Shown in pieces: positions 6,448 through 46,634 of a DNA stretch of 64,000 nt. The DNA comes from Flammeovirga sp. SJP92. Its GTDB lineage: Bacteria > Bacteroidota > Bacteroidia > Cytophagales > Flammeovirgaceae. Each line of letters opens with the position of its first letter. Positions within the stretch are counted from its first letter, which is position 1. The notes beneath the pieces are model-generated. The model was not told the origin of the DNA and searched no databases. It worked only from the letters and a program-made list of their open reading frames with translations. Made by a program: the position numbers and the translations under genes. The stretch covers positions 62,001-126,000 of the forward strand of contig NZ_LQAQ01000042.1 of assembly GCF_001583495.1 (NCBI RefSeq). The letters run 5' to 3'.

Positions 6448-6530
6448 GCCTAGGTGGTGGAATTGGTAGACACGCTAGACTCAAAATCTTGTGAGCTTTG
6501 CTCGTGTGGGTTCGAGTCCCACCCTAGGTA
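6448..6530 (+). tRNA. tRNA-Leu (CAA), copy 1
   Basis: An 83-nt class II tRNA. Acceptor stem GCCTAGG pairs with CCTAGGT (first pair G-T), D-loop GGAATTGGTAGA, anticodon loop CTCAAAA (anticodon CAA, reads UUG), variable arm stem GAGC/GCTC, T-arm GTGGG-TTCGAGT-CCCAC. No CCA is encoded. The anticodon stem has a T-T mismatch at pair 28-42, shared by all four copies. Confidence 0.95.
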
Positions 6531-6554
6531 CTACGTTCATTTTTTTATATTTTC

Positions 6555-6637
6555 GCTTGAGTGGTGGAATTGGTAGACACGCTAGACTCAAAATCTTGTG
6601 AGCTTTGCTCGTGTGGGTTCGAGTCCCACCTCAAGTA
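6555..6637 (+). tRNA. tRNA-Leu (CAA), copy 2
   Basis: The body is identical to copy 1, but the acceptor stem is GCTTGAG paired with CTCAAGT. Both sides of the stem have changed together, so pairing is kept. It lies 24 bp after copy 1. Confidence 0.95.
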
Positions 6638-6673
6638 CATTTTGTCCATATTGAAGAAATTAAAAAACAATTT

Positions 6674-6756
6674 GCCTAGGTGGTGGAATTGGTAGACACG
6701 CTAGACTCAAAATCTTGTGAGCTTTGCTCGTGTGGGTTCGAGTCCCACCCTAGGTA
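6674..6756 (+). tRNA. tRNA-Leu (CAA), copy 3
   Basis: Identical to copy 1 over the whole 83 nt, including acceptor stem GCCTAGG/CCTAGGT. The bases just after the 3' end (CTACG) are also shared with copy 1, which suggests recent duplication. Confidence 0.95.
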
Positions 6757-6778
6757 CTACGATTGTTTTTTTATTTCC

Positions 6779-6861
6779 GCCTGGGTGGTGGAATTGGTAG
6801 ACACGCTAGACTCAAAATCTTGTGAGCTTTGCTCGTGTGGGTTCGAGTCCCACCCCAGGTA
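6779..6861 (+). tRNA. tRNA-Leu (CAA), copy 4
   Basis: Same body as the other copies, with acceptor stem GCCTGGG paired with CCCAGGT, again a paired substitution. It is the last gene of the array; a terminator begins 10 bp later. Confidence 0.95.
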
Positions 6862-6870
6862 CTAACAAGA

Positions 6871-33468: not shown

Positions 33469-35406
33469 TCAAGGCCTTTTAATCCCCAACTTCTTCATTC
33501 TAGCTTCTAATGTTGTTCTATTAATATCTAAAATTTTGGCAGCACCACGATCTCCGCTGATTCTCCAATTCGTCATTTTCAATACCTTAAAAATATGTTT
33601 TCTCTCGTTCTCAGATAAGGTCAAGACTTCATTTTTTTCCTCTTCTACATTGTTCGTTTTCAATCCTTTAATTTCCAACTTCGAACTATTAGAAATGATG
33701 ACAGCTCTTTCAATTACATTTTGAAGTTCACGAACGTTGCCCGGCCATTGGTAATTTTTCAATTTATTCATTGTTCCGATTGTAATCGATCGAATGTTTT
33801 TACTAAACCTCTCGTTGTATTTTTTCAAAAAGTGCCTAGCCAATAAAGGTACATCCTCCAATCTTTCTTTCAGTGGTGGAACATGAATAGGGAAAACATT
33901 CACACGATAAAATAAATCTTCTCTAAACTTTTTGTCCTTTACAGCCTTTTCGAGATTGACATTGGTTGCTGCTATTATTCGAACATCAATTTTTATAGTT
34001 TCAGTACCGCCAATTCGTTCAATCTCACCCTCTTGTAATACTCTTAATAGCTTTACTTGAAGGTCAAGAGAGATTTCTCCAAATTCATCCAAAAACAGTG
34101 TGCCACCATCAGCCATCTCAAAGCGTCCAATTTTTCTAGCAACAGCACCAGTAAATGCACCTTTTTCATGCCCGAATAATTCACTTTCAATTAAGTTAGC
34201 AGGCAAAGCAGTACAATTGACTTTAATCAAAGGTTTATCTTTTCGAGTACTATGATTATGAAGAGCTCTAGCAATCAGTTCTTTACCTGTACCGGATTCT
34301 CCTAAGATCAATACGGTGGCATTTGTAGGAGCTACTTGTTCAATTTTAGCAAGAACATTTTCTTTAAAAACATCACTTTCACTAATTAATTCCTCAAAAT
34401 TATTGTTGAGTTTGATTTCTTCCTGCAAGAATTGATTTTCCTCTTCTAGGTTATCTTTTAATTCTTTGACTTCTTTTAATGCTCTTGTTAGTTCAAGATT
34501 TGTCTTTTTAAGCGCCTTTTCCGTTTCTCTTCTATGCGTTATATCTTTAAAAGTAACTACAGCGCCAATCAACTCATTATTATTGTCAAAAAGTGGCGTG
34601 CTTACATATTCTACAGGAAATGAAGATCCATCTTTACGCCAAAAAACTTCATCATCACTATGGTGAACTTTACCATCTTTAAAAGAGGCATAAATATTAC
34701 AGTCATGTTTGTGGTAATGAGAGCCGTCAGGTTTTGTATGATGAATTAAATCATGTTGAGAAACATTGATCATTTCCTCCAGTGAGTAACCGACCAATTT
34801 CACAGCGGCTTCGTTGGCAAAAGTAGTTCTTCCTTGTGTATCAAGTCCATAGATCCCTTCACCGGCAGATTGAAGAATAGACTCATGATGTCTTTGCAAA
34901 TCACGGAGTTGTTCTAAGAGTGCTTTTTTTTCTTCTGAAGTAGAAACATGATCTTTATTCTGAGTGCTTTCACCGGTATTGATTTCACCAATTACTTGTA
35001 AAGCTTCATTTAGTTGTTCTCTTAATTGAATGATCTCTGTTATTTCATGACACTTTGTAAAACAGATAATTCCATTGCCAATGTTTACTCCAGTAAAACT
35101 TATTTCAACATCCAGATAACGATCATTTTTATCTATAATCGTTGTCTCAAAACTTGTTGTTTTATTTTCTTTTAACTCACTCCATATCTTTTTCCATTCA
35201 CGTTTAGAAAGGTTTTCATCAATATCGAGAATAGATATTTTACCTAAGTCATTTTCACAGTAACCACATTTTTCATGGAAAGAATCATTGCATTTATCGA
35301 TGTGTCCATCTTCAGTCAACCAAAATATTAGATCTGAAGAAGAGTTTAATGCTATCTCGGACCATTTCTCATCCCAGACTACTTTTTCTAGCATTTTAGA
35401 AGTCAT
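33469..35406 (-). CDS. PAS-PAS sigma-54-dependent transcriptional activator
   Basis: A 645-residue enhancer-binding protein when started at ATG 35406; the longer frame to 35481 begins inside a palindromic operator and adds 25 unlikely residues. Order: PAS1 (10-125), coiled coil, PAS2 (172-292), coiled coil (295-335), AAA+ (340-575) with Walker A GESGTGKE (369-376), the sigma-54 contact loop GAFTGA (416-421) and Walker [12 protein letters not shown], then a Fis-type helix-turn-helix at the C-terminus ([20 protein letters not shown]). There is no receiver domain. PAS1 has Cys39, 47, 50, 115 and 119, and PAS2 has an [15 protein letters not shown] cluster, suggesting redox, metal or ligand sensing. 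It probably controls the adjacent redox genes. Confidence 0.9.
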
Positions 35407-35464: not shown

Positions 35465-35480
35465 TGCCAAAATAATGGCA
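35465..35480. promoter_or_regulatory. Palindrome TGCCA-N6-TGGCA, copy 1
   Basis: TGCCA (35465-35469) and TGGCA (35476-35480) around AAATAA. It lies 60 bp upstream of the activator start and 345 bp upstream of the divergent Rieske-GltS gene. Same core, spacing and right-hand flank (TTTA) as the copy at 41486. The rest of 35481-35824 has no gene, and I found no -24/-12 GG-N10-GC promoter. Confidence 0.6.
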
Positions 35481-35824: not shown

Positions 35825-37429
35825 ATGAAAAAAGTAAAACTAGTAGAAGTAGCTCAACTCTCTGAAAAAACACCTGAAGCATTTCAAGTAAACGGTTTGG
35901 ATCTTGTCGTTATAAAATACGATAACAATGTCTCTGTATTGTATGGAAGGTGTCTGCATAGGGGAGCATTAATGGCCGATGGATCTATAGTTGGTCATAA
36001 TTTAATCTGCGGATTGCACGGCTGGGACTACAGATATGATACTGGAGTGAGTGAGTATAATAATGAGGAAGCTTTACATAAATTCACCGAAATTATTGAA
36101 GACGGTATATTGTATGTTGATGAAGAGGAAATTGATGCTTATTTAACGGTGTATCCTCAACCCTTCAACAGAGATGAATATTTAGGTCAATATGCAGATA
36201 CACATCCAGAGGATACTGAACCATACACAGGTTATATTCGGCAATTGGCAAAAGAGGGGTTAAGTAAAATTGGTAAGCATGGACCGTCTTCTTCTATGGG
36301 AGTGGACCGTAATACCTTGCCAAAATGGGAACAAATTCAGTTTCTTCCGGCCCAGCTCTCAAAACGCCCATTATTAGATGGGGAAGAAGTCACTACTACA
36401 ACTGTGATCGGAAAAAAAGCGAAAAAACCGCTTGTCCTTGATATACCTGTTTTTGTTTCAGATATGAGTTTTGGGGCACTATCAAAAGAAGCTAAAATTG
36501 CTTTGTCAATGGGAGCAGAAAAGGCAGGTACAGGAATTTGTAGTGGAGAGGGCGGTATGTTGCCAGGTGAACAAGCTGAAAATTCTAAATATTTTTATGA
36601 ATTAGCTTCGGGTAAGTTTGGTTTTTCTTGGGAGAAAGTGAAAAAAGCACAGGCGTTTCATTTTAAGGCAGGGCAAGGGGCAAAGACAGGGACAGGAGGA
36701 CACTTGCCAGGAAGTAAAGTAACGGAAGAAATCGCTAAAGTAAGAGGGTTAGAAAAAGGACAGTCGGCTATTTCCCCTGCTGCATTTCCTGATTTTAAAT
36801 CCGTAGATGACTTTAAACAATTCGCTGAAGAAGTAAGAGAAAAAACAGGTGGAATTCCTGTAGGTTTTAAAATGGCAGCATCAAGAATTGAAGAAGATAT
36901 TGATTTTGCCTTAGCAGTGGGAGTGGATTATATTATCCTTGATGGTAGAGGAGGAGGAACTGGCTCTGCACCCAATATTCTGAAAGACAATATCAATGTA
37001 CCTACAATACCGGCATTGGCAAGAGCACGCAGACATTTGGATAAAGTAGGTGCAAATGACGTCACTTTAATAATTACAGGTGGTTTGAGAGTAGCAGATG
37101 ATTTTGTGAAAGCATTAATGTTGGGAGCCGATGCCATCGCCATCTCAAATTCAGCAATGCAAGCCATCGGTTGTTTAGGCATGAGAGCTTGTTCTACCAA
37201 TAACTGTCCAGTAGGTATTGCAACTCAAAAAGATCATTTGAGACAAAGAATAAATATTATTAAGTCAGCCAATCAACTTTCCAATTTCTTTGAAGCTTCT
37301 ACAGATCTTATGAAAGTAGTAGCAAGAGCCTGTGGTCATAATGATTTTAAGGGTTTTAATTTCTCAGATTTATCCACTTTAGATTATAAAATACACCAAC
37401 TGACTAATATTAGGTTTGCGGGGTATTAA
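35825..37429 (+). CDS. Rieske domain fused to a glutamate-synthase-like FMN oxidoreductase
   Basis: A 534-residue fusion. Residues 1-105 form a Rieske [2Fe-2S] domain with ligands Cys43-x-His45 and Cys62-x-x-His65 (RCLHRG, CGLHGW). Residues about 130-520 are the FMN-binding, [3Fe-4S] synthase domain of the glutamate synthase family (FVSDMSFGALS, KAGQGAKTGTGGHLPGSKV, LDGRGGGTG), with the cluster cysteines Cys450, Cys456 and Cys461 in the family C-x5-C-x4-C spacing. There is no glutaminase domain, so this is a GltB-like oxidoreductase using another electron or ammonia source, with the Rieske cluster as likely electron relay. It is followed 17 bp later by DUF427. Substrate unknown. Confidence 0.88.
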   Translation: MKKVKLVEVAQLSEKTPEAFQVNGLDLVVIKYDNNVSVLYGRCLHRGALMADGSIVGHNLICGLHGWDYRYDTGVSEYNNEEALHKFTEIIEDGILYVDEEEIDAYLTVYPQPFNRDEYLGQYADTHPEDTEPYTGYIRQLAKEGLSKIGKHGPSSSMGVDRNTLPKWEQIQFLPAQLSKRPLLDGEEVTTTTVIGKKAKKPLVLDIPVFVSDMSFGALSKEAKIALSMGAEKAGTGICSGEGGMLPGEQAENSKYFYELASGKFGFSWEKVKKAQAFHFKAGQGAKTGTGGHLPGSKVTEEIAKVRGLEKGQSAISPAAFPDFKSVDDFKQFAEEVREKTGGIPVGFKMAASRIEEDIDFALAVGVDYIILDGRGGGTGSAPNILKDNINVPTIPALARARRHLDKVGANDVTLIITGGLRVADDFVKALMLGADAIAISNSAMQAIGCLGMRACSTNNCPVGIATQKDHLRQRINIIKSANQLSNFFEASTDLMKVVARACGHNDFKGFNFSDLSTLDYKIHQLTNIRFAGY

Positions 37430-37446: not shown

Positions 37447-37725
37447 ATGAAAGTAGTATATCAAGAAGTATTGATTGCAGAAAGTGATCAAACTGTTGAA
37501 GACTGCGGTGTAATTTATTTCCCTCCTTCATCTGTGAAATTTGAATACCTTGTGGAATCTGATTTTAGAAGCTCTTGTTTATTCAAAAATACTGCAACTT
37601 ATTATCATATTAAGGTAGGAGAGCATGAGTTTAAAAATGCTGTTTGGAGTTATAAAGATCCTGATCCTGAGGTAGAGAAAATCAAAGGGTGTTTGGCATT
37701 TGCTGATGAGTTGTTGAAGTCATAA
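37447..37725 (+). CDS. DUF427 family protein
   Basis: A 92-residue single-domain protein with DUF427 hallmarks: KVVYQEVLIAESDQTV at the start, a YFPPSSV strand, TYYHIKV, then AVWSYKDPDPEVEKIKGCLAF. DUF427 proteins are small beta-tent folds of uncertain biochemistry. The gene is 17 bp behind the Rieske-GltS gene, so they should share a transcript. The usual TCPWKG segment is replaced by SCLFKN, which differs from the broken paralogue at 43894-44175. It ends just before a 42-bp perfect palindrome. Confidence 0.85.
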   Translation: MKVVYQEVLIAESDQTVEDCGVIYFPPSSVKFEYLVESDFRSSCLFKNTATYYHIKVGEHEFKNAVWSYKDPDPEVEKIKGCLAFADELLKS

Positions 37726-37776: not shown

Positions 37777-39720
37777 CTATATCAACTTCACATCAGCAGC
37801 AATTTCAAGCAATCCAGGACCTTGATGAGAAAATAATTTCTGATAGGCTTCCGTGAGTTTTTCTTTATTAGTTACCTTTATTCCTAAAGCACCACAACTT
37901 TTAGCATAAGCGGCAAAATCAGGGTTTACCAAATCAGTAGCCCATTTATCCCAACCGCCAGCTCTTTGTTCTTTAGAAATTTTACCTAACTCATTATTAT
38001 TAATGACAATCACTTTGATCGGCATATTGTACTTAACCAAAGTGGTGATTTCTGCAAGATATTGACACAATCCTCCATCTCCAGCAACAGCTATAATAGG
38101 TCTGTCATCACCAACCGCTGACCATGCCCCCATACTTGCTGGAAGTGCAAAACCAATGGAACCAAGATAACCCGACATCAGAAATGTGTGCTCTTGGGTT
38201 TCAAAATATCTCCCGAAAGAGTAAGCATTATTTCCCACATCCACGCACATAATGGCATTTTTAGGAGCAGTTTGAGTAAGCTGGGAAAAGATCTCTATGG
38301 AGCTAATTCCATGATGATTATCTTCCAATTTCCTTCTTTCTTTTTCAGCTCTCCAAATCGACCACCTTTCCGAAATTTCGTCTATTCTTGATATTTTATT
38401 CGATTTGAAATCATCTAAATTATCCAACAGTAATTCCATGGTTCTAGAAATTTCTCCATACACAGGAATATCAACAGAGTGGAACTTTGCCAAAGCAAGA
38501 GGATCAAAGTCGATCTGTATGGTTTTCAGTTTTGGAGTGATGCCCGTATGATTTGAAAAAGAAGCTCCAATGACAACCAATAAATCTGCTTCATTCATAA
38601 ACCAAGAAGCGATAGGAGTACCACTTCTACCTAAAACACCACAGCCCAATGGATGTTGATCTGAAATCTGACCTTTTCCTTTAAAAGTCGTCATCACCGG
38701 ACAAGATAACCCTTCCGCCAAAGTTGTGATTTTATCCATATCAAAACGAGCTCCATGACCGACGATAATAACAGGCCGTTTGGCTTCTTTGATAGTTTCA
38801 ATTGCTTCTTGCAGACTTTCTTCGGGAGGAGCGATTTTGAGAGAGGCAATTCTTCCTTTTGGAGAAGAAGCCTTTTGATTTCCGGCAGGAATAGTTTGTA
38901 CTTGATCCGGAAAGGTGAGGTGGGAAACATCTCTGTTTAAAAGAGCATGTTTGATGGCAAGCGTCATTAATTCAGAATGCTTACTTTGGGATTCTACTCT
39001 TTGGTTAAAATCAGCAACATTTTGAAAAGCTCTGACTAAATCCACTTCTTGAAAATTTCCTGTACCTACTACTTGAGTGGCCACTTGACCAGATAAAGCT
39101 AATAAAGGTGCTCGATCTACTTTAGCATCCCACATTCCTGTAAACATATTGGTACTGCCAGGACCTGCTATTCCAAAACAAGCCGCAGGTTTACCCGTCA
39201 GTTTTCCATATGCTGAAGCGGCAAATGCGGCAGCCCCTTCGTGCCTCACTCCAAAGAATTTTAGTTGCCCACTGTCTTCCAATCGATGAAAAGCATCAGC
39301 CAATCCCAAATTAGAATGACCAACTATTCCAAACACTCTATCAACACCCCAATTCACCATAGTTTCAGCCATAATATCAGTGACAGTGGTTTCATGAGGA
39401 GCTTCTTCTTCTACTTCCACATAAACAGCATCATTTTCAATTTTGGTTTTAAAAGAAGCAAGACCATCATCAAATCCATCAGAGTCACCACCGCAAGGAC
39501 TGAAATCCCAGCCATGCCAAGGACATCTTAATTTTCCATTTTCGATTGAACCTTCTCCAAGCGGTCCACCTTGATGAGGGCATTTATTGGTGATTGCATT
39601 AAATTTCCCCTCAAAATGTGTAAGACATAATTGTTGATGTCCTGCATCAACTGTCATTACTCTATTTTCATTCAGTTGAGAAGTGTGGTCTAAAACTTTA
39701 TACCATTTTTTTTGAGCCAT
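37777..39720 (-). CDS. Rieske domain fused to a ThDP-dependent pyruvate oxidase-like enzyme
   Basis: A 647-residue fusion when started at ATG 39720; the frame is open to 39786, but the extra 22 residues do not look like protein. Residues 1-105 form a Rieske domain (CPHQGG with Cys47/His49, RCPWHGW with Cys66/His69). The rest is a complete thiamine-diphosphate enzyme of the acetolactate synthase/pyruvate oxidase family: catalytic Glu161 in RHEGAAAFAASAYGK, a central domain (about 300-440), and the ThDP/Mg motif GDGG (547-550) to NN (574-575). A quinone- or FAD-linked 2-oxoacid oxidase using the Rieske cluster to pass electrons is the simplest reading. The substrate is not known. Confidence 0.88.
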   Translation of the reverse strand: MAQKKWYKVLDHTSQLNENRVMTVDAGHQQLCLTHFEGKFNAITNKCPHQGGPLGEGSIENGKLRCPWHGWDFSPCGGDSDGFDDGLASFKTKIENDAVYVEVEEEAPHETTVTDIMAETMVNWGVDRVFGIVGHSNLGLADAFHRLEDSGQLKFFGVRHEGAAAFAASAYGKLTGKPAACFGIAGPGSTNMFTGMWDAKVDRAPLLALSGQVATQVVGTGNFQEVDLVRAFQNVADFNQRVESQSKHSELMTLAIKHALLNRDVSHLTFPDQVQTIPAGNQKASSPKGRIASLKIAPPEESLQEAIETIKEAKRPVIIVGHGARFDMDKITTLAEGLSCPVMTTFKGKGQISDQHPLGCGVLGRSGTPIASWFMNEADLLVVIGASFSNHTGITPKLKTIQIDFDPLALAKFHSVDIPVYGEISRTMELLLDNLDDFKSNKISRIDEISERWSIWRAEKERRKLEDNHHGISSIEIFSQLTQTAPKNAIMCVDVGNNAYSFGRYFETQEHTFLMSGYLGSIGFALPASMGAWSAVGDDRPIIAVAGDGGLCQYLAEITTLVKYNMPIKVIVINNNELGKISKEQRAGGWDKWATDLVNPDFAAYAKSCGALGIKVTNKEKLTEAYQKLFSHQGPGLLEIAADVKLI

Positions 39721-39803
39721 GTGAAATAAGAAGTTAAGTGGGTGATGAAGTAAAGCACTAAGGCATGTGATTTTACACATGCCCAAGTCCTCGTTATAAT
39801 TTA

Positions 39804-40115
39804 CTACTTTATTTCTTTTTCTTCATGTCTTAACAGACATATAGGACAAGTTAAACTGTCTTTTTCTCTGATAAGTTGAATACCATCAAGGTTATTGACC
39901 ATAAATTCTTTAATGAAAGAATAATTCTCCTTATGATTATTGACATTGATCTGTTTATCTTCTCTTAATTCTCTAAACTTATTATCATACTCTTGTTTCC
40001 CCCAGCAGTTTGGACATAATCCTTCCGGTACTTGACCTTCTGTTTCTGATTTTGGCTTACTAAAGAAATTGATTAATGAATTGATAATGCTGTTGTTTTC
40101 AATGATATTTTTCAT
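39804..40115 (-). CDS. Small CxxC (zinc-ribbon-like) protein
   Basis: A 103-residue protein with two CxxC pairs, CPNCWG near residues 34-39 and CPICL near 90-94, separated by a helical region (NYSFIKEFMVNNLDGIQL). The arrangement suggests one four-cysteine metal site, zinc or Fe-S. Similar CPNCWGxQEY proteins are, as I recall, conserved hypotheticals in Bacteroidota. It lies 83 bp upstream of the Rieske-ThDP gene and downstream of the aldo/keto reductase on the same strand, within the putative redox regulon. A chaperone or electron-carrier role is speculative. Confidence 0.75.
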   Translation of the reverse strand: MKNIIENNSIINSLINFFSKPKSETEGQVPEGLCPNCWGKQEYDNKFRELREDKQINVNNHKENYSFIKEFMVNNLDGIQLIREKDSLTCPICLLRHEEKEIK

Positions 40116-40332
40116 GATAGATAGATTTTTTATTGATGAGAGGTTAAATTTGATTAGAAGTACCTGGAAAGAAGAAAACGGATATTTTATCTTATCTTTT
40201 TTATTCTACTCTTCGTTAGATTTTCATCAAGTAGCTTTAGCTATGCTCTTCAAATCTGCCTTGATTAGAATAAAAAATATTTACCTAAAATTATCCCTTC
40301 CCCTCTTTCCATGTACTTTATGAGGGATTAGA

Positions 40333-41277
40333 TTAATTCCATCCCAATTTTTTTCTTTCGTTCCAGTATTCTTCAGGGGAAACATAAAATGAAGTAAGAA
40401 ACTCCAATTCTCCTTTTTCCAGTTCAAATGACTCAGCTTTCAAATTGTCAGTAATATGTTGTTGTTCAGAAGCACCACTTAATACTTTGAAAGGCTTCAG
40501 ACAATCAATTACGAATCGCAAAGCAATCGCATCAACACCTACATTATATTTCTTAGCGAGATATTCCATTGCTTTATAAAGCGCTGCGTAATGCGGGTAA
40601 TTTTCATTTCTGAATAAACGACCATTGGCTAACGCCTCTTTGACTATAATTCTTTTATCTTTTAAAAGCTCTTGAATTTCAATGACACTTTGATCAAGAA
40701 TATTGAAAGTTACTTGGAAAGCGTCAAAAAGCTGTTTTCCATTACGTTCAATTTCTAAAGCACTTTTAATAATTTGTGTCTGATTTTCACCACTTGAAGT
40801 CAAACCAATTTTTAGATTATATTCTTCTTTCAATTCTCCTAATCGGTCTAAAACTTCTGTATTATTGAAAATTCCTGATTCAAACGTTGCAGAGTGAATT
40901 TGATAAGTAGTTAATCTGGGAAGCAACTTTTGCGTAAAGTCCCATTGTTCATTTAATTTACTTAAGCTATGCTCTTTTACTTCATGTGTTTTAGCATTAG
41001 GATCAAAATGTGCCGTATAAGTGTACCCCCATTTTGAAGCAATTTCAATATCTGAATATCCTTTTAAAGCAGACCATTCCAACACTAATTTTTCAGCTAA
41101 TCCATAACCTGGAGCAGTATCGAAATATCTGATGCCTTGGTCATACGCCTCTTGTAAAACATTCATGCCTTTTGCCTTAAACTCTTCAAGTGAAGTATTG
41201 TCTACATTTTCTTGTCTTACATTAATGTACTGAGGACGTCCGATGGCTGCTGTACCTAAACCGATGAAATTTTTCAT
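40333..41277 (-). CDS. Aldo/keto reductase
   Basis: A 314-residue NAD(P)H-dependent oxidoreductase of the aldo/keto reductase superfamily. The catalytic tetrad is visible: Asp and Tyr in YFDTAPGYGLAE, Lys in EIASKWGYTY and His in TYQIHSATF. KIGLTSSGENQ and the C-terminal VLSGASEQQHI cofactor segment follow. It probably reduces aldehydes or ketones; the closest functional type (galactose dehydrogenase-like or general detoxification) cannot be told. It is the first gene of a minus-strand unit whose upstream region carries palindrome copy 2 at 41486, 209 bp before the start. A 217-bp gap separates it from the CxxC gene. Confidence 0.92.
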   Translation of the reverse strand: MKNFIGLGTAAIGRPQYINVRQENVDNTSLEEFKAKGMNVLQEAYDQGIRYFDTAPGYGLAEKLVLEWSALKGYSDIEIASKWGYTYTAHFDPNAKTHEVKEHSLSKLNEQWDFTQKLLPRLTTYQIHSATFESGIFNNTEVLDRLGELKEEYNLKIGLTSSGENQTQIIKSALEIERNGKQLFDAFQVTFNILDQSVIEIQELLKDKRIIVKEALANGRLFRNENYPHYAALYKAMEYLAKKYNVGVDAIALRFVIDCLKPFKVLSGASEQQHITDNLKAESFELEKGELEFLTSFYVSPEEYWNERKKLGWN

Positions 41278-41485
41278 ATTGATAAATTGAGAGATAAAAT
41301 AATTGTAATTAATAAACTCATTAAGAACACTTTACATAAGAGTAACTGTGCAAGTAACGTTCGATATGTTTATTTCAATCAAAATGCCATAAATGGTTAA
41401 ATGGTTGATAATTAAGTTGTTAAGGTTGTAATTTCAATGATGTGATGATATCTCTCAATAAAAAACTGACAGTATTTAATAGAAT

Positions 41486-41501
41486 TGCCAAAATGTTGGC
41501 A
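41486..41501. promoter_or_regulatory. Palindrome TGCCA-N6-TGGCA, copy 2
   Basis: TGCCA (41486-41490) and TGGCA (41497-41501) around AAATGT, followed by TTTAC. It lies upstream of the aldo/keto reductase unit. Confidence 0.6.
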
Positions 41502-41620
41502 TTTACATGATATTTTAATGAGTTGTGGTATTACACGATGTTATTTCGTGCCTTTAAATCTTCAAAAAAGATGAAAAAAAGTGCATTTTCCTTAAATAAT
41601 TTATGATTTAGAAGAAATTC

Positions 41621-41920
41621 GAGTGTTTTGTAGCCACGTAGCCCGCTACGTGAAGTCCGAAAGAGGTAGAGTATCCCAATTTTTTTTTCTTGGAGATTGA
41701 TTCCTCCTTAATTTTCAAATTTCTGTATTTAGAAGTCAGAGACTTCTTATGATCTTTCAAGCACAAATGACGCTGTCGCTTAACATTTGCGCTAGGTAGA
41801 AAGTGTTTTGTAGCCACGTAGCCTTCTACGTGAATTCCGAGATAAGTAGAATACCTTATTTTCAATTAAAATTAATTATTCTGACAATAGCATAGCAGGC
41901 TACGCTTCTACAATGGATCA
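41621..41920. repeat. Cluster of palindromic (REP/MITE-like) repeats
   Basis: Two direct copies of a roughly 40-bp unit beginning GTGTTTTGTAGCCACGTAGC lie at 41622-41661 and 41802-41841, exactly 180 bp apart. Each holds a CACGTAG/CTACGTG hairpin. A third, inverted and diverged copy (GTAGAAGCGTAGCCTGCTA on the minus strand) is at about 41890-41915, so the outer copies face each other. Between them are a perfect hairpin AGAAGTC-AGA-GACTTCT (41731-41747) and a GCACAAATG/CATTTGCGC stem (41761-41792). No transposase is present. An 85-residue minus-strand reading frame across it is a translation of the repeats. The flanks 41278-41485 and 41502-41620 hold no gene. Confidence 0.7.
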
Positions 41921-41970
41921 AACTTCTTCATTTACTACCTATGCAGGAGGGTGGAAAAAAGTAGATAAAC

Positions 41971-41995
41971 AAAAAGAGGTCACCGAAGTGACCTC
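41971..41995 (-). terminator. Terminator of the disulfide reductase unit
   Basis: GAGGTCAC (41976-41983) and GTGACCTC (41988-41995) flank a CGAA loop (TTCG on the transcribed strand), followed on the minus strand by five T. It is a textbook rho-independent terminator, 35 bp beyond the stop at 42030. Confidence 0.9.
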
Positions 41996-42029
41996 CTAAG
42001 AGTCTCTGATATTATCATTTCTAAGCTCT

Positions 42030-43388
42030 TTAAAACATATATTTAATATCAGAGGAGTAGCTTGGGTAGGCAAAAACAATAGTTTTTAACTCCTCAACCG
42101 TCATACCTTGATTAATTGCCATTGTAATCACATTGATCTGTTCTTCAGCACCAGGTCCAATCAAGTGGGCACCTAGAATTTTTCTAGTTTTTTTGTCCAC
42201 AATTGTCTTGAACCCTGAGTATTTTTCATTTACTCTCACTGAAGAATACCATTGAGAAGTTGCTTTATACTTCACCTCAACATCGATTCCTTTGGTTTTA
42301 GCTTCCTCTTCAGAAATACCTACAGCAGCTATAGGTGGTAGGGTATACACTACACTCGGGATGGCAGGGTAGATCGTTTTGTGTAGGTCTTTTCCTGCAA
42401 TTAAGTTTTGACCTACAGTTTTAGCCTCTATTCCTGCTACCGGAGTTAAATTTGGTTTTCCGGTATCTGCACAATCCCCTGCAGCAAATACTTTCGGGTT
42501 AGAAATGCTTCTTTGGTATTCATTTACTTTCACACCTTTTTTAGAATATTCTACATCGATTGCTTCTAAATTCAAATCTAGAATATTGGCACCTCTTCCT
42601 GCTCCATGTACAATCAGGTCACATTCCAATTGCTGTATACCTGAAGGGGTTTGATAAGTGATGATATAATGTTCACCAACTTTCTTAATTTTTTGAATAG
42701 TACTATTCATCTCAATTAGAATCCCCATTTCTTGACTTTTTTGCACTTGCATATTCACCAAGTCAGGATCAAAGTGATTCAATACTCTGTTACCTCTCTG
42801 TAAAATTGTCACTTCACTTGCTCCACCTCGTTTTGAAATCTGAGCAAATTCAAAGGAAATAAATCCTCCACCAATAAAGAGGATTCTTTTGGGAACTTCC
42901 ACCAGATCTAGAAAATCTGTACTTGTTTTGACATGCTCTTCACCATCTATTCCCAATTTTGAAGGACTTGCTCCAGTAGCAATATGGAAATACTCACTAT
43001 GTAATTTTTGATCACCAACTTGCAGGCTTCCATCATCAATAAACCTGGCTTTTCCATGAAACTCTACAATACCCATTCTTTCCAATGATTGCTCAACTCT
43101 ATCAGGCATCGGTTCAATAAAGGAATTTTTGAAGGCACTCATTTTTTTCCAATCAATTGCTGCATCTTTCACCACAAATCCTTTTTCACTCATTCTTTCA
43201 ACAGCATCTATCCCTTCACTTACAGCCAAAAACATTTTCTTAGGGTCACAACCTCTAAGCATACAAGTGCCTCCAAATTTTAATTCTTCTACAATCCCTA
43301 CTTTCCATCCTTCTAAAGCACATGCTCTCGCTACACTTGTACCTGCTGAACCAGCACCAATAACAATTAGATCAAATTTATTTTCCAT
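42030..43388 (-). CDS. Glutathione-reductase-like FAD-dependent disulfide oxidoreductase
   Basis: A 452-residue pyridine nucleotide-disulfide oxidoreductase. FAD-binding LIVIGAGSAGTSVARACA (8-25) is followed by the redox-active pair in GGTCMLRGCDPKK (Cys42, Cys47), the NAD(P)-binding ILFIGGGFISFEFAQ, the second FAD motif VFAAGDCADTG, and the dimer interface domain. The family's active-site His-Pro near the C-terminus is replaced by Tyr-Pro (FAYPSYSSD, Tyr441), so thiol protonation must differ from glutathione reductase. It is the last gene of a unit with thioredoxin 100 bp upstream, so low-molecular-weight thiol or persulfide chemistry is likely. Substrate unknown. Confidence 0.9.
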   Translation of the reverse strand: MENKFDLIVIGAGSAGTSVARACALEGWKVGIVEELKFGGTCMLRGCDPKKMFLAVSEGIDAVERMSEKGFVVKDAAIDWKKMSAFKNSFIEPMPDRVEQSLERMGIVEFHGKARFIDDGSLQVGDQKLHSEYFHIATGASPSKLGIDGEEHVKTSTDFLDLVEVPKRILFIGGGFISFEFAQISKRGGASEVTILQRGNRVLNHFDPDLVNMQVQKSQEMGILIEMNSTIQKIKKVGEHYIITYQTPSGIQQLECDLIVHGAGRGANILDLNLEAIDVEYSKKGVKVNEYQRSISNPKVFAAGDCADTGKPNLTPVAGIEAKTVGQNLIAGKDLHKTIYPAIPSVVYTLPPIAAVGISEEEAKTKGIDVEVKYKATSQWYSSVRVNEKYSGFKTIVDKKTRKILGAHLIGPGAEEQINVITMAINQGMTVEELKTIVFAYPSYSSDIKYMF

Positions 43389-43488
43389 GAGTATTTTTAA
43401 GATTGATAAGAGAGGTAGGTTGAAATTTCGTGCACCATAGTAAAAAGTTTTGGTGCACGAAATACCCTATTAATGATTTATGAAAGAT

Positions 43489-43848
43489 TTATTTTATACC
43501 AAATTCTGCTTCAAAAGCTTTTTTAAAGTCATTTTTCTGAAGGGCACCTTTTTGCATTTTTGGTACATCCTCCATTGGTATGAACAATAGAGAAGGAATA
43601 CTTCTAATTCCGAACATAGAGGATAACTCTTGTTCAATTTCCGTATTGACCTTATAGATATCTACCTTTCCATCATATTCTTCCGCTAATTCATCAAGGA
43701 TAGGAGCAACCATTTTACATGGTCCACACCAATCTGCATAGAAGTCAATTAATGCGGGTTTATCACCTTTATAATTCCAATCTTCATTATTTGTATAATC
43801 GAATATTTTATCTTTGAATTCCTCTAAGCTTAAATTTTTAACTGCCAT
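43489..43848 (-). CDS. trxA: Thioredoxin
   Basis: A 119-residue thioredoxin with active site WCGPCK (near 40-45), the preceding IDFYADWCGP strand and the cis-proline loop IRSIPSLLFI. It is cytosolic, with no signal peptide. It reduces protein disulfides; here it lies between a DUF427 pseudogene (45 bp upstream) and a glutathione-reductase-like gene on the same strand, so the two may form a thiol-redox pair within the putative stress regulon. Confidence 0.93.
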   Translation of the reverse strand: MAVKNLSLEEFKDKIFDYTNNEDWNYKGDKPALIDFYADWCGPCKMVAPILDELAEEYDGKVDIYKVNTEIEQELSSMFGIRSIPSLLFIPMEDVPKMQKGALQKNDFKKAFEAEFGIK

Positions 43849-43893
43849 AATTGTATAATTTATTGTGTTACTAGATGTATTAATTAAAACTGA

Positions 43894-44175
43894 TTATTTG
43901 ATTTCTACCCCTTTCCAGAAAGCAACATGATCCTTGATTTCACTTGCCATCTCGCTAGGTCTTTTATAAGTCCAAGCTGCTTTTGCATTGGTATCTCCAT
44001 TTACATTAATGTTGTAATAAGAAGCGACACCTTTCCACGGACAAGTTGACTTCGCATCAGTATCTTCAAAGTATTCTTTATTTAAAGAAGATGGTGGGAA
44101 ATATTGGTTTCCTTCGATTTCAATTGTTTGATCGCTTTCCGCTTAAACTACACCGTTCCAAATTGCCTTTTTCAT
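43894..44175 (-). pseudogene. DUF427 family protein interrupted by a nonsense codon
   Basis: Read from ATG 44175 the frame gives MKKAIWNGVV, then TAA at codon 11 (44143-44145), then an intact DUF427 domain (AESDQTIEIEGNQYFPPSS, TCPWKGVASYYNI, AFWKGVEIK) to the normal stop at 43894. A Leu or Ile is expected at codon 11, so a single-base change such as TTA to TAA explains it. There is no frameshift, and no alternative ATG lies before the conserved core. It sits in the same unit as a secreted isochorismatase gene with two further stops. It is either a recent pseudogene, sequence error or, less likely, a read-through gene. Confidence 0.8.
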
Positions 44176-44247
44176 GATTTTATATTTTTAATATTTGAGA
44201 GATTGTATTTTGATTTTTTTGGATATAAGAATCCTGTTTTTGTTTAG

Positions 44248-44394
44248 TTATTGATGAATATAATTCACCTTTTCAGTAGCATTATTTTTTTGACTTGTTT
44301 TTTGTTCATCTTGATGCTTATAGTAGAAAGCAATCAACGTCATAAAAATACCTGCGGCTACTAATTTTAGAATTGGACTTTTGATACAACACAT
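44248..44394 (-). CDS. 48-residue single-helix membrane peptide
   Basis: A short open frame with ATG at 44394: a CC pair near the start (MCCIKSPILK), one transmembrane helix (LVAAGIFMTLIAFYY) and a polar tail rich in Lys, Gln and Asn. It fits in the gap between DUF547 and the DUF427 pseudogene, on the operon strand, and nothing else in that gap looks coding. Small membrane proteins are common in such units, but homology is unknown. Confidence 0.45.
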   Translation of the reverse strand: MCCIKSPILKLVAAGIFMTLIAFYYKHQDEQKTSQKNNATEKVNYIHQ

Positions 44395-44444
44395 AATTGA
44401 AATTTTTTGATTAATAATAAATTGTTTTCACTCTTTCATTTGAT

Positions 44445-45158
44445 TTAAGCGACTTGATTAGTTTGAAAGAAATTTCCGAGTTTTTCCTCCCATGAGTAAG
44501 GATTAAATTTTACTCTAAAGCCATCTATGTCTATCATTAGTGTCTCTGATATGATTTTCCTTACATTATTGATCCCTCCAAAGTCTCCCATAAACCATAA
44601 GAACAGGCGAGTTACATTGACCGTTTTTTTGTCATTATCAAATGAAGTTTCAGCTTCTAGGAAGGAAACCATCGCCATTTGAAGTTGATTGTCGATGTCA
44701 ATCGGATCATAAAACAGGATAGGAGGGCAACTTGCAGCACCGCAGTTTAATGCAAAGTGAATACGGTAATCTACAGATACTACTGCCAAACTTTTGAGGA
44801 CCTTTGAAGGGAACAATTGAGGAAGATAACCCAAACCATATTTATATTTGAACCTTCTCAAAATTCCATGCTCTACGTCATCTAAACTAAATTCGTGTCC
44901 AGCGATCATAAATAATTTGATCGAATAGATAAGACTTTTTTCATGTCTGAAATTTCTTGCAAGGATTTGATAGAAAGCATTATAAATGTTGATCCAGAAT
45001 GCCTTCTTTCTATCGTCACTGTACAACTGTTTTTGTAATTCTGTTAGATCAATATGTTTTAAAGCAAACTCAAGTGTAAAAGTAGGCTTGTTTAATTTTA
45101 CAGCGCGAAGTAGATCTTCAGATAATTTTATAGCGTCGATTTTTTGAGAAAGGTACAT
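44445..45158 (-). CDS. DUF547 family protein
   Basis: A 237-residue protein with the DUF547 core: KAFWINIYNAFYQIL, HEFSLDDVEHGILR, and the signature HFALNCGAASCPPI with two cysteines, followed by FYDPIDIDNQLQ. DUF547 domains are papain-like in sequence (Cys/His), but activity is unproven. No signal peptide is seen. It lies within the minus-strand redox unit, 44 bp after the isochorismatase pseudogene, and unlike its two broken neighbours the frame is complete. Confidence 0.88.
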   Translation of the reverse strand: MYLSQKIDAIKLSEDLLRAVKLNKPTFTLEFALKHIDLTELQKQLYSDDRKKAFWINIYNAFYQILARNFRHEKSLIYSIKLFMIAGHEFSLDDVEHGILRRFKYKYGLGYLPQLFPSKVLKSLAVVSVDYRIHFALNCGAASCPPILFYDPIDIDNQLQMAMVSFLEAETSFDNDKKTVNVTRLFLWFMGDFGGINNVRKIISETLMIDIDGFRVKFNPYSWEEKLGNFFQTNQVA

Positions 45159-45202
45159 AATATTTGAATAGATTTAATGATGAATAATGGAGAGTGCAGT
45201 GA

Positions 45203-45943
45203 TTATTTTTTTGAGGCCTTTAATGTCTCCTCTAATTCTTTAGTAGAGTATACATGACTTGAAATCATTCTGAAATTAGTCTGTGCCGCAGCATTTCCAT
45301 CAAAACCAGGAACCTGTGCAGAGGCGGTAGCATCACCAATTACAGCTATCTCAAATCCGTCTTCAATCAGTTCACGCATATGAGATTCTACACATAAGTT
45401 CCCTGACATTCCACAAAGAATTACTTTATCGATTTTCTTTTTTCTCAACTGTAACGAAAGGTTGTTTTGTTCTGGTCAAAATATTTTATGAGGAGTGGCT
45501 ACAGTTACATAATCCTGCTCAATGTATTGCTTCTAACGATCTAACCAATCCGCTCCAGAACCTTCAAATCCTTCCACTTTTAACTGATCTTCTCTGTCAA
45601 ACATGTTTATGTGATGCATCAATTCTTCAAGTGCACCTTCAAACTTCCATGAGTGATCGTGTTCATAATAATAATGTGGCGATACAAACACTGGCAACCC
45701 ATATTCTTTGGCTAGTTGGAATATTTTATCAAGATTTTCTACTGTATTATTTTCAGTAACGCTTTTTCCAACGACATCCCAAGCAGCACCTTCAGGACTT
45801 AAGAAATCGTTTTGTGGATCAGTCATTACTATGGCAGTGTATTCGTCGATTTCAAAACCAGGATCTGGTAATTGAGCACTGATAGAAAAAACGATGAATA
45901 AATTACTTAACAAAAGAAGTGTAGTTTTGAATAGATTTTTCAT
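45203..45943 (-). pseudogene. Secreted isochorismatase-family hydrolase with two in-frame stops
   Basis: One continuous frame of 246 codons interrupted by TAG at 45533-45535 (codon 137, where family context LDR-Y-K suggests Tyr) and TGA at 45476-45478 (codon 156, where F-G-PE suggests Gly). Everything else is intact: signal peptide (ISAQ), catalytic Asp in VMTDPQNDFL, and the nucleophile Cys in ILCGMSGNLCVESH. Each stop is explained by one substitution, and there is no frameshift. Family members hydrolyse amides or vinyl ethers. It is the first gene of the unit headed by palindrome copy 3. Recent decay or sequencing error are the main explanations. Confidence 0.82.
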
Positions 45944-46634
45944 GATAAATTGTTGAGATTAAAGTGAAGGGTGTATGATACTACCCTATATTTTTTCTAT
46001 AGATTGAATATTTGATAACGATAAATTATATTTTTAACTACAAGTACAAAAGACACTCTGTTTTATAAACTCTTTATCTTGATAAGAAATAAATGAGTTG
46101 TCAATAACAGATGATTAAGTTAGATGTAGAGAATTCATAATTTTTAAATTAATGTTTGATGCCAATGGAAATACAAGAGGTGTGCCTTTGTTAGTTAAGT
46201 GTTTGATTATCAGTTACATGAAAGTTAAAATTATATAAAAATTGAGAGATATCACCAAAACAATGTCAAAATAGTATAATAATGCCAATATATTGGCAAT
46301 TACCGATCTTTAGACCATGAAGTTGCTCATAGAAGCACAAAAAGGGTCAGCTGTTGAAGTGGAAATCATCTATTCTTACTCAAAAAACAGCTAATATTAA
46401 CATTAGTTTGTAATTAAACTTCCTTTCCAATATAAAGACTTCATCCACTAGGTAATTTACTTAATCACGCCAATTAAGAATTACTCCAATATTTAAGAAA
46501 TGTCCATCTTCTACCTTTGTAATATCATAAAACGCTCTCAATCACAATCACTCTCTACCTAACAATCTATTCATAGTGAATGATACAATGTGAATTGAAG
46601 GTTTGAAAAATTTATAACCTTAAGAAAAAAGAAA
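45944..46634. other. Divergent intergenic region with palindrome copy 3
   Basis: About 690 bp between the isochorismatase pseudogene (minus) and the DUF1269-type gene (plus). It holds the palindrome at 46283-46298 and a possible -7 element TACCTTTG near 46515-46522 for the plus-strand gene. A 25-codon frame beginning about 46318 directly after the palindrome is too short to judge. No other gene is seen. Confidence 0.6.
46283..46298. promoter_or_regulatory. Palindrome TGCCA-N6-TGGCA, copy 3
   Basis: TGCCA (46283-46287) and TGGCA (46294-46298) around ATATAT, followed by ATTAC. It lies 340 bp upstream of the isochorismatase pseudogene and 337 bp upstream of the DUF1269-type gene. Confidence 0.6.

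Follow-up and report, generated by a model that had tools for sequence, protein, structure and literature searches.

Two neighboring genes in a 64,000-nucleotide stretch of the Flammeovirga sp. SJP92 genome (contig NZ_LQAQ01000042.1, positions 62,001 to 126,000; hereafter the window), one for an isochorismatase-family hydrolase and the other for a DUF427 protein (DUF427a), are interrupted by three premature stop codons. Judged by comparison with related sequences, both genes are very probably genuine pseudogenes of recent origin, and the operon that holds them belongs to a stress-type regulon that appears to be under sigma-54 control. The stops are ordinary gene decay, and the regulon that surrounds them is the part worth following. 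The stopped genes are found at about 107 kilobases (kb) of a 193-kb contig (C42) in an assembly of 8,491,641 bases and 123 contigs (G000).

All three stops lie on the minus strand, at exactly the coordinates at which the original prediction had placed them. The DUF427a frame (43894-44175) carries TAA at codon 11 (44143-44145), and the isochorismatase frame (45203-45943) carries TAG at codon 137 (45533-45535) and TGA at codon 156 (45476-45478). A search of the SJP92 genome likewise had one TAA inside the DUF427 match and one TGA and one TAG inside the isochorismatase match. Both frames are otherwise unbroken, with no frameshift, as had been claimed. When the stops were read as X, DUF427a matched its Pfam family over positions 2-92 of 93 (102.9 bits), and the isochorismatase frame matched PF00857 over positions 1-153 of 175 (91.7 bits against a cut-off of 27). 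The latter frame retains the aspartate of DPQNDF and the cysteine of GNLCVESH, which we take to be active-site residues; the presence of the cysteine bears out the claim that residues downstream had been kept. Translation would stop after 136 of 246 residues in the isochorismatase, N-terminal to the conserved cysteine motif, and after 10 residues in DUF427a, where the next in-frame ATG is at codon 76 of 93. The DUF547 gene (237 amino acids) and a 48-amino-acid open reading frame (ORF) are open, again as stated in the prediction. A fourth stop lies close by, at 46115-46117, in the remnant of what was likely the first gene of the operon.

Relatives of both genes are intact. An open isochorismatase gene is present in four other Flammeovirga genomes, those of Flammeovirga aprica ATCC 23126 (G002, the nearest relative for this gene), G001, G008 and G005, at identities of 96, 87, 80 and 72%. 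DUF427a orthologues are open in G001 and G008, and so is a DUF427 paralogue, 71% identical, on another contig of the SJP92 genome (C20). None of the relatives compared has a stop at any of the three window positions. Isochorismatase codons 137 and 156 specify tyrosine and glycine in all 13 other aligned rows, the four open Flammeovirga genes included, and codon 11 of DUF427a is isoleucine in the two orthologues and leucine in seven paralogous copies. The idea that each stop arose by one substitution fits the isochorismatase, where the codons of the nearest relative are one change away from TAG and TGA. By contrast, a single-substitution origin is not established for DUF427a codon 11: both orthologous codons are three changes from TAA, and two of the seven paralogous codons are one change and the other five two changes away.

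The two stopped genes also show the signature of relaxed selection. In a relative-rate test that compared missense changes on the window side and the G001 side, with G008 as outgroup, the counts were 14 versus 7 for the isochorismatase and 9 versus 2 for DUF427a (23 versus 9 pooled). For six open cluster genes together (aldo/keto reductase, flavin adenine dinucleotide (FAD) oxidoreductase, thioredoxin, a 103-amino-acid protein, DUF547 and the activator) they were 92 versus 101. The pooled contrast gave a Fisher p of 0.009, and faster evolution on the window lineage was confined to the two stopped genes. With F. aprica and G001 used to polarize the changes, the window lineage had four missense changes in the isochorismatase, two in DUF547 and two in the 534 codons of the neighboring flavin mononucleotide (FMN) gene. 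Four isochorismatase missense changes are private to the window (residues 53, 72, 161 and 199). All four fall at invariant columns, compared with 38 of 210 private changes in the other 12 rows (p 0.0013; rhizobial row L050 excluded) and with 38 of 107 when only Flammeovirga rows are used (p 0.019). On the F. aprica side, there are three missense changes, at columns in which the commonest residue occupies 5, 3 and 10 of 12 rows.

These comparisons also give an approximate date. The ratio of nonsynonymous to synonymous change (dN/dS) between the window isochorismatase and that of F. aprica remains 0.058 even with two stops present, which marks the loss as recent; until then the gene had been strongly constrained. 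Six nonsynonymous changes after the loss correspond to about 0.010 neutral changes per site on a branch of about 0.10, from which we estimate that the gene was lost late, within about the final tenth of the branch that leads from the F. aprica split. In the scheme that we propose, the isochorismatase and DUF427a would each have been inactivated recently by premature stops, the other operon genes and the activator would have stayed open at an unaccelerated rate, and the operon would thus have lost individual members. Because its remaining genes and the activator are open and not accelerated, the operon is probably still used.

Several results weigh against this interpretation. The single-gene missense tests are weak (p 0.095 for the isochorismatase and 0.033 for DUF427a). 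The invariant-column test depends on the choice of rows, with p ranging from 0.0008 to 0.088: keeping L050 gives 2/3 versus 45/253 (p 0.088), and excluding L049, L050 and F. aprica gives 5/12 versus 29/161 (p 0.061). Two stops beside four missense changes in the isochorismatase are slightly more nonsense than neutral drift would produce (p 0.03-0.05). Finally, the F. aprica genome is a draft of 460 contigs with an estimated contamination of 7%.

The same cluster is damaged in F. aprica, at other points. Its activator gene (L034) carries TAG149, TGA627 and a 1-nucleotide deletion, and its second DUF427 gene (DUF427b) has TAG at codon 6. The F. aprica contig is without a counterpart of window positions 40152-44168 (about 4 kb), and the GG of the -24 element is lost from the isochorismatase promoter; the isochorismatase and DUF547 genes remain open. 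The activator and promoter damage maps to L034 1270-1400 and 8039-10037. In G001, we found no internal stop in the cluster genes compared. An activator orthologue was found in four of nine Flammeovirga genomes (E up to 1e-150). Further apparent stops, at codon 18 of the F. aprica thiamine pyrophosphate (TPP) enzyme and at codons 27-29 of the activators of G001 and G008, were rejected because they precede the likely true starts. As judged from these genomes, the regulon appears to erode repeatedly, with targets affected in the window lineage and the activator plus a promoter affected in F. aprica. The cluster offers a small natural series of regulon loss, with single targets gone in one lineage and the activator and promoter in another. 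The second chromosomes of Flammeovirga are under more relaxed selection, according to one study (PMC8653839), and this may apply to the cluster, which in G008 sits on a 2.24-megabase (Mb) contig. The DUF547 gene of that genome (L036 12437-13126) is interrupted by TAG at codon 148, its frame being continuous apart from this stop.

Very recent decay, which the original prediction had listed beside two other causes, is the explanation favored by the relaxed selection seen in just the two stopped genes, by the open relatives and by the damage in F. aprica. The first of the other causes was an assembly or consensus error, in which case the organism would have sense codons at all three places. The assembly is a draft of 123 contigs, and random errors would fall on invariant sites too, as the four private missense changes do. 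However, random substitutions in these genes yield 14-19 missense changes for each nonsense change; three stop-making errors would therefore come with some 40 missense errors, and these have no counterpart in the region. Indeed, bad sequence was rejected as the cause of the stops on the strength of open neighbors with few window-lineage missense changes. The stops also sit mid-contig, and the published description of the strain (8.53 Mb, 123 contigs, 93 tRNAs) reports 215-fold Illumina coverage (PMC5267422). We consider such an error quite improbable.

We judge it more improbable still that functional read-through or recoding continues to supply full-length proteins, the second of the other causes. 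In its favor, both frames are open to their ends apart from the stops and retain family residues, but three different stop codons are involved, their position is not conserved (no compared relative shares one), and a protein still in use would not be expected to show missense changes at sites that are invariant elsewhere. Nor was a decoding tRNA found. There was no stop-reading anticodon among the tRNAs that ARAGORN called in 30 loci or in the four tRNA genes of the window, and no selenocysteine tRNA scored above the family cut-off in a survey that is incomplete and could miss a diverged suppressor; in a first look, 150 of 756 candidates were scored, with 91 matches. We rejected a suppressor or selenocysteine tRNA as the reason for tolerated stops on this basis. 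A different possibility is that inactivation was selected and not merely tolerated. Damage to one cluster in three genomes (the window, F. aprica and G008), at different places, would fit such adaptive loss, as would the slight excess of nonsense over missense in the isochorismatase. However, once a first stop is accepted as the inactivating event, the second is unremarkable (p 0.23-0.29), and what F. aprica has lost, the 4-kb block and the promoter element, resembles ordinary relaxed selection. We therefore regard adaptive loss as unlikely.

The strain description counts 127 pseudogenes among 6519 genes (PMC5267422), and if this rate applies, the probability of at least two pseudogenes among the 12 cluster genes is 0.022. 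We scanned 584 kb of the SJP92 genome by coding potential for in-frame stops with coding sequence of at least 30 codons on each side, a limit at which the three window stops are themselves missed, so that the scan serves as a rough background only. Fourteen rows were returned; we read one as another clear instance of a nonsense change and the others as ordinary gene junctions or shadow frames. In that one, likely also a nonsense pseudogene, TAA at C61:189263-189265 (minus strand; L116 9263-9265) interrupts a Pfam-supported amylase-like C-terminal domain with no other break. The window genes resemble nonsense pseudogenes of other free-living bacteria in their isolated premature stops, recognizable coding sequence, open relatives and relaxed selection. 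They differ in being concentrated in one cluster that is damaged in sister species too, and in nothing in kind. The stops themselves are useful mainly for annotation.

The surroundings matter a little more, as they yield material for studying a sigma-54 regulon in Bacteroidota: a candidate gene for the activator, a list of targets and a short motif that can be tested. The motif is the palindrome TGCCAA-N4-TTGGCA, which we first noticed at 46283 by eye and looked for elsewhere afterwards. One copy precedes each of three units in the window (Table 1). The 8.49-Mb SJP92 genome has two exact copies, both in this cluster, and none of the reversed control. A -24/-12 promoter-like site with 0-1 mismatch lies 91-112 base pairs (bp) from two of the three window palindromes, two of two in G001 (L035) and one of one in G008 (L036), compared with a proportion of 0.0035 of random window positions that have a promoter of at most one mismatch. 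The promoter pattern behind these counts was chosen after inspection, once the palindrome had been seen and distant loci compared. Beside the palindrome at 35465 there is no promoter with at most one mismatch, and G001 has one before the FMN gene; in F. aprica, neither of two palindromes is accompanied by such a promoter. A sigma-54 consensus search of the whole window at up to one mismatch performed at chance level (2 found, 2.01 expected). In three of the distant loci described below, a consensus fixed beforehand was matched at 10 of 10 positions (L040 and L044) or 9 of 10 (L048). The activator has PAS domains, a sigma-54 AAA domain and a Fis-type helix-turn-helix (HTH) by Pfam, and we infer that it binds the palindrome.

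Some observations argue against the specificity of the palindrome. With up to one mismatch, it occurs at 37 places in the SJP92 genome versus 10 for the reversed control. Exact copies are found outside the cluster in G001 (two), G002, G006 and G007 (one each), and G006 and G007 carry theirs yet are without an activator orthologue. None of 17 outside-cluster palindromes examined (the five exact copies in other genomes and 12 of 34 one-mismatch places in the SJP92 genome) has a promoter with 0-1 mismatch on either strand. Before the G001 isochorismatase operon, there is a promoter-like site and no palindrome within one mismatch.

In distant Bacteroidota, too, the palindrome stands next to the same pair of genes. 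Among loci fetched by the isochorismatase, it was present with at most one mismatch in all five that have the activator nearby (L039, L040, L044, L047 and L048) and in none of six examined that are without it (L041, L042, L043, L045, L049 and L050); three further loci (L046, L051 and L052) have no palindrome. In the five activator-bearing loci, all eight palindromes are followed by a -24/-12 site at 91-112 bp, seven with no mismatch and one with a single mismatch. In L040 and L044, the promoter precedes another gene that stands 5' of the isochorismatase. The G005 isochorismatase locus has no palindrome, and that genome is without an activator orthologue. A search of 395 Bacteroidota genomes with the exact composite of palindrome and promoter gave one match, before an isochorismatase orthologue. 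Because this genome and L048 are identical across the 1100 bases that were compared, the match speaks for specificity and not for independent recurrence; the SJP92 genome has no exact composite, as its own sites carry a mismatch. Five of the 395 genomes have an isochorismatase orthologue. The palindrome is present in the window genome, G148 and G160 (in the last, with motif sequences identical to those of L039) and was absent from the fetched flanks of the orthologue in G050 and G164.

Gene families within these loci suggest, as the one indication of function, that the regulon may answer redox or electrophile-type stress, and a stress response of the window operon is likewise deduced from families. 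By Pfam, the activator-bearing loci include DUF1348 (L039), carboxymuconolactone decarboxylase (L044), alpha/beta hydrolase (L040) and DoxX (L047). OsmC was seen in L041, the one locus checked for it by Pfam, where the activator was not found. With moderate confidence, we propose a conserved sigma-54 regulon of marine Bacteroidota in which a PAS activator, bound to TGCCAA-N4-TTGGCA at about 91-112 bp on the upstream side of -24/-12 promoters, would drive a detoxification-type gene set anchored by a signal-bearing isochorismatase. In Flammeovirga, this regulon would have been dismantled piecemeal and independently, via targets in one species and via the activator and a promoter in another. Among the matches listed for searches on isochorismatase/sigma-54/RpoN, DUF427/DUF547, the palindrome and Flammeovirga, no open-access title or abstract describes such a regulon. 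A 2025 sigma-54 survey mentions Bacteroidota, and the consulted portions of its main text name neither isochorismatase nor Flammeovirga (PMC12316311).

Both central proteins resemble known families and stand apart from them. Like the isochorismatase-like cysteine hydrolases (PF00857; NCBIfam neighbors such as the biuret hydrolase BiuH, RutB and nicotinamidase), the isochorismatase frame passes the Pfam cut-off and has the DPQNDF and GNLCVE motifs. However, it scores below the cut-off of the four NCBIfam models that it matched (best 40 versus 195 bits), has a signal-like N-terminus by eye and is interrupted; we refer to it as a putative hydrolase. The activator shares PAS, sigma-54 AAA and Fis-type HTH domains with FhlA, NifA and NorR, and the palindrome here lies 91-112 bp from a -24/-12-like promoter. 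By contrast with these regulators, the activator falls below every NCBIfam regulator cut-off among the 25 of 41 matches listed, of which it passes only a general PAS-domain model, and the combination of palindrome and isochorismatase-centered targets was in no title or abstract among the matches listed.

The features of the cluster are collected in Table 1; we infer the membership of its operons from gene order and spacing. The activator ORF reaches 35481, and homology to relatives starts near 35400. The gene 5' of the isochorismatase encodes 152 amino acids in G001 and 133 in G008 and is reduced to 26 codons in F. aprica and 7 in the window, where the short frame is a probable remnant of the operon's first gene. 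The 48-amino-acid ORF is possibly the N-terminal remnant of a DUF1254/DUF1214 gene: it is 36% identical over 42 amino acids (pairwise E 9e-8) to a 431-amino-acid protein encoded 3' of DUF547 in G001, a weak match whose aligned part takes in a hydrophobic stretch.

Table 1 Features of the isochorismatase cluster in the window (positions 1 to 64,000; aa, amino acids).
Feature	Position	Strand	Basis or remark
PAS/sigma-54 activator with AAA domain and Fis-type HTH, open	33469..35400	-	Pfam
Palindrome, 1 mismatch, between activator and divergent FMN gene	35465..35480	.	Motif search
Rieske and glutamate-synthase-like FMN protein, open	35825..37429	+	NCBIfam
Second DUF427 gene (DUF427b), open in window	37447..37725	+	Relatives compared
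Aldo/keto reductase, 103-aa protein and Rieske-TPP (pyruvate-oxidase-like) enzyme, proposed second operon	37777..41277	-	Pfam, NCBIfam
-24/-12 promoter-like site TGGCATTTTGATTGA, aldo/keto reductase operon	41375..41389	-	1 mismatch; 112 bp from palindrome
Palindrome TGCCAAAATGTTGGCA, candidate activator site, aldo/keto reductase operon	41486..41501	.	Exact copy
FAD/NAD(P) disulfide oxidoreductase, open, isochorismatase operon (proposed)	42030..43388	-	Pfam, NCBIfam
Thioredoxin, open, isochorismatase operon (proposed)	43489..43848	-	ORF list, Pfam
DUF427 (PF04248) probable pseudogene (DUF427a)	43894..44175	-	TAA at codon 11; orthologues open in G001, G008
48-aa ORF, open; possible N-terminal remnant of DUF1254/DUF1214 gene	44248..44394	-	Weak pairwise match
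DUF547 protein, 237 aa, open, no acceleration on window lineage	44445..45158	-	ORF list, Pfam, relative rates
Isochorismatase-family hydrolase, probable pseudogene	45203..45943	-	Signal-like N-terminus (by eye); stops at codons 137, 156
Probable remnant of operon's first gene, 7 codons then TAA	46115..46138	-	Comparison with F. aprica, G001, G008
-24/-12 promoter-like site AGGCACACCTCTTGT, isochorismatase operon	46173..46187	-	1 mismatch; 111 bp from palindrome
Palindrome TGCCAATATATTGGCA, candidate activator site, isochorismatase operon	46283..46298	.	Exact copy

An 85-amino-acid ORF (41608-41865) with no Pfam match, situated between the palindrome of the aldo/keto reductase operon and the gene for the FAD oxidoreductase, holds two 61-nucleotide direct repeats (41622-41682 and 41802-41862) that are 82% alike and 180 bp apart. 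The tRNA survey gave some observations of its own. A 123-nucleotide tRNA-family match at C99 171476-171598 (L135) received no ARAGORN call, and a tRNA on C18 (L134 88-164) was called with anticodon ATT. Tandem arrays of tRNAs with the same anticodon are present in L067, L083 and L120 (C93 and C112), with seven tRNA-Phe, nine tRNA-Lys and nine tRNA-Met genes, and the window itself has a tandem array of four tRNA-Leu genes at 6448-6862.

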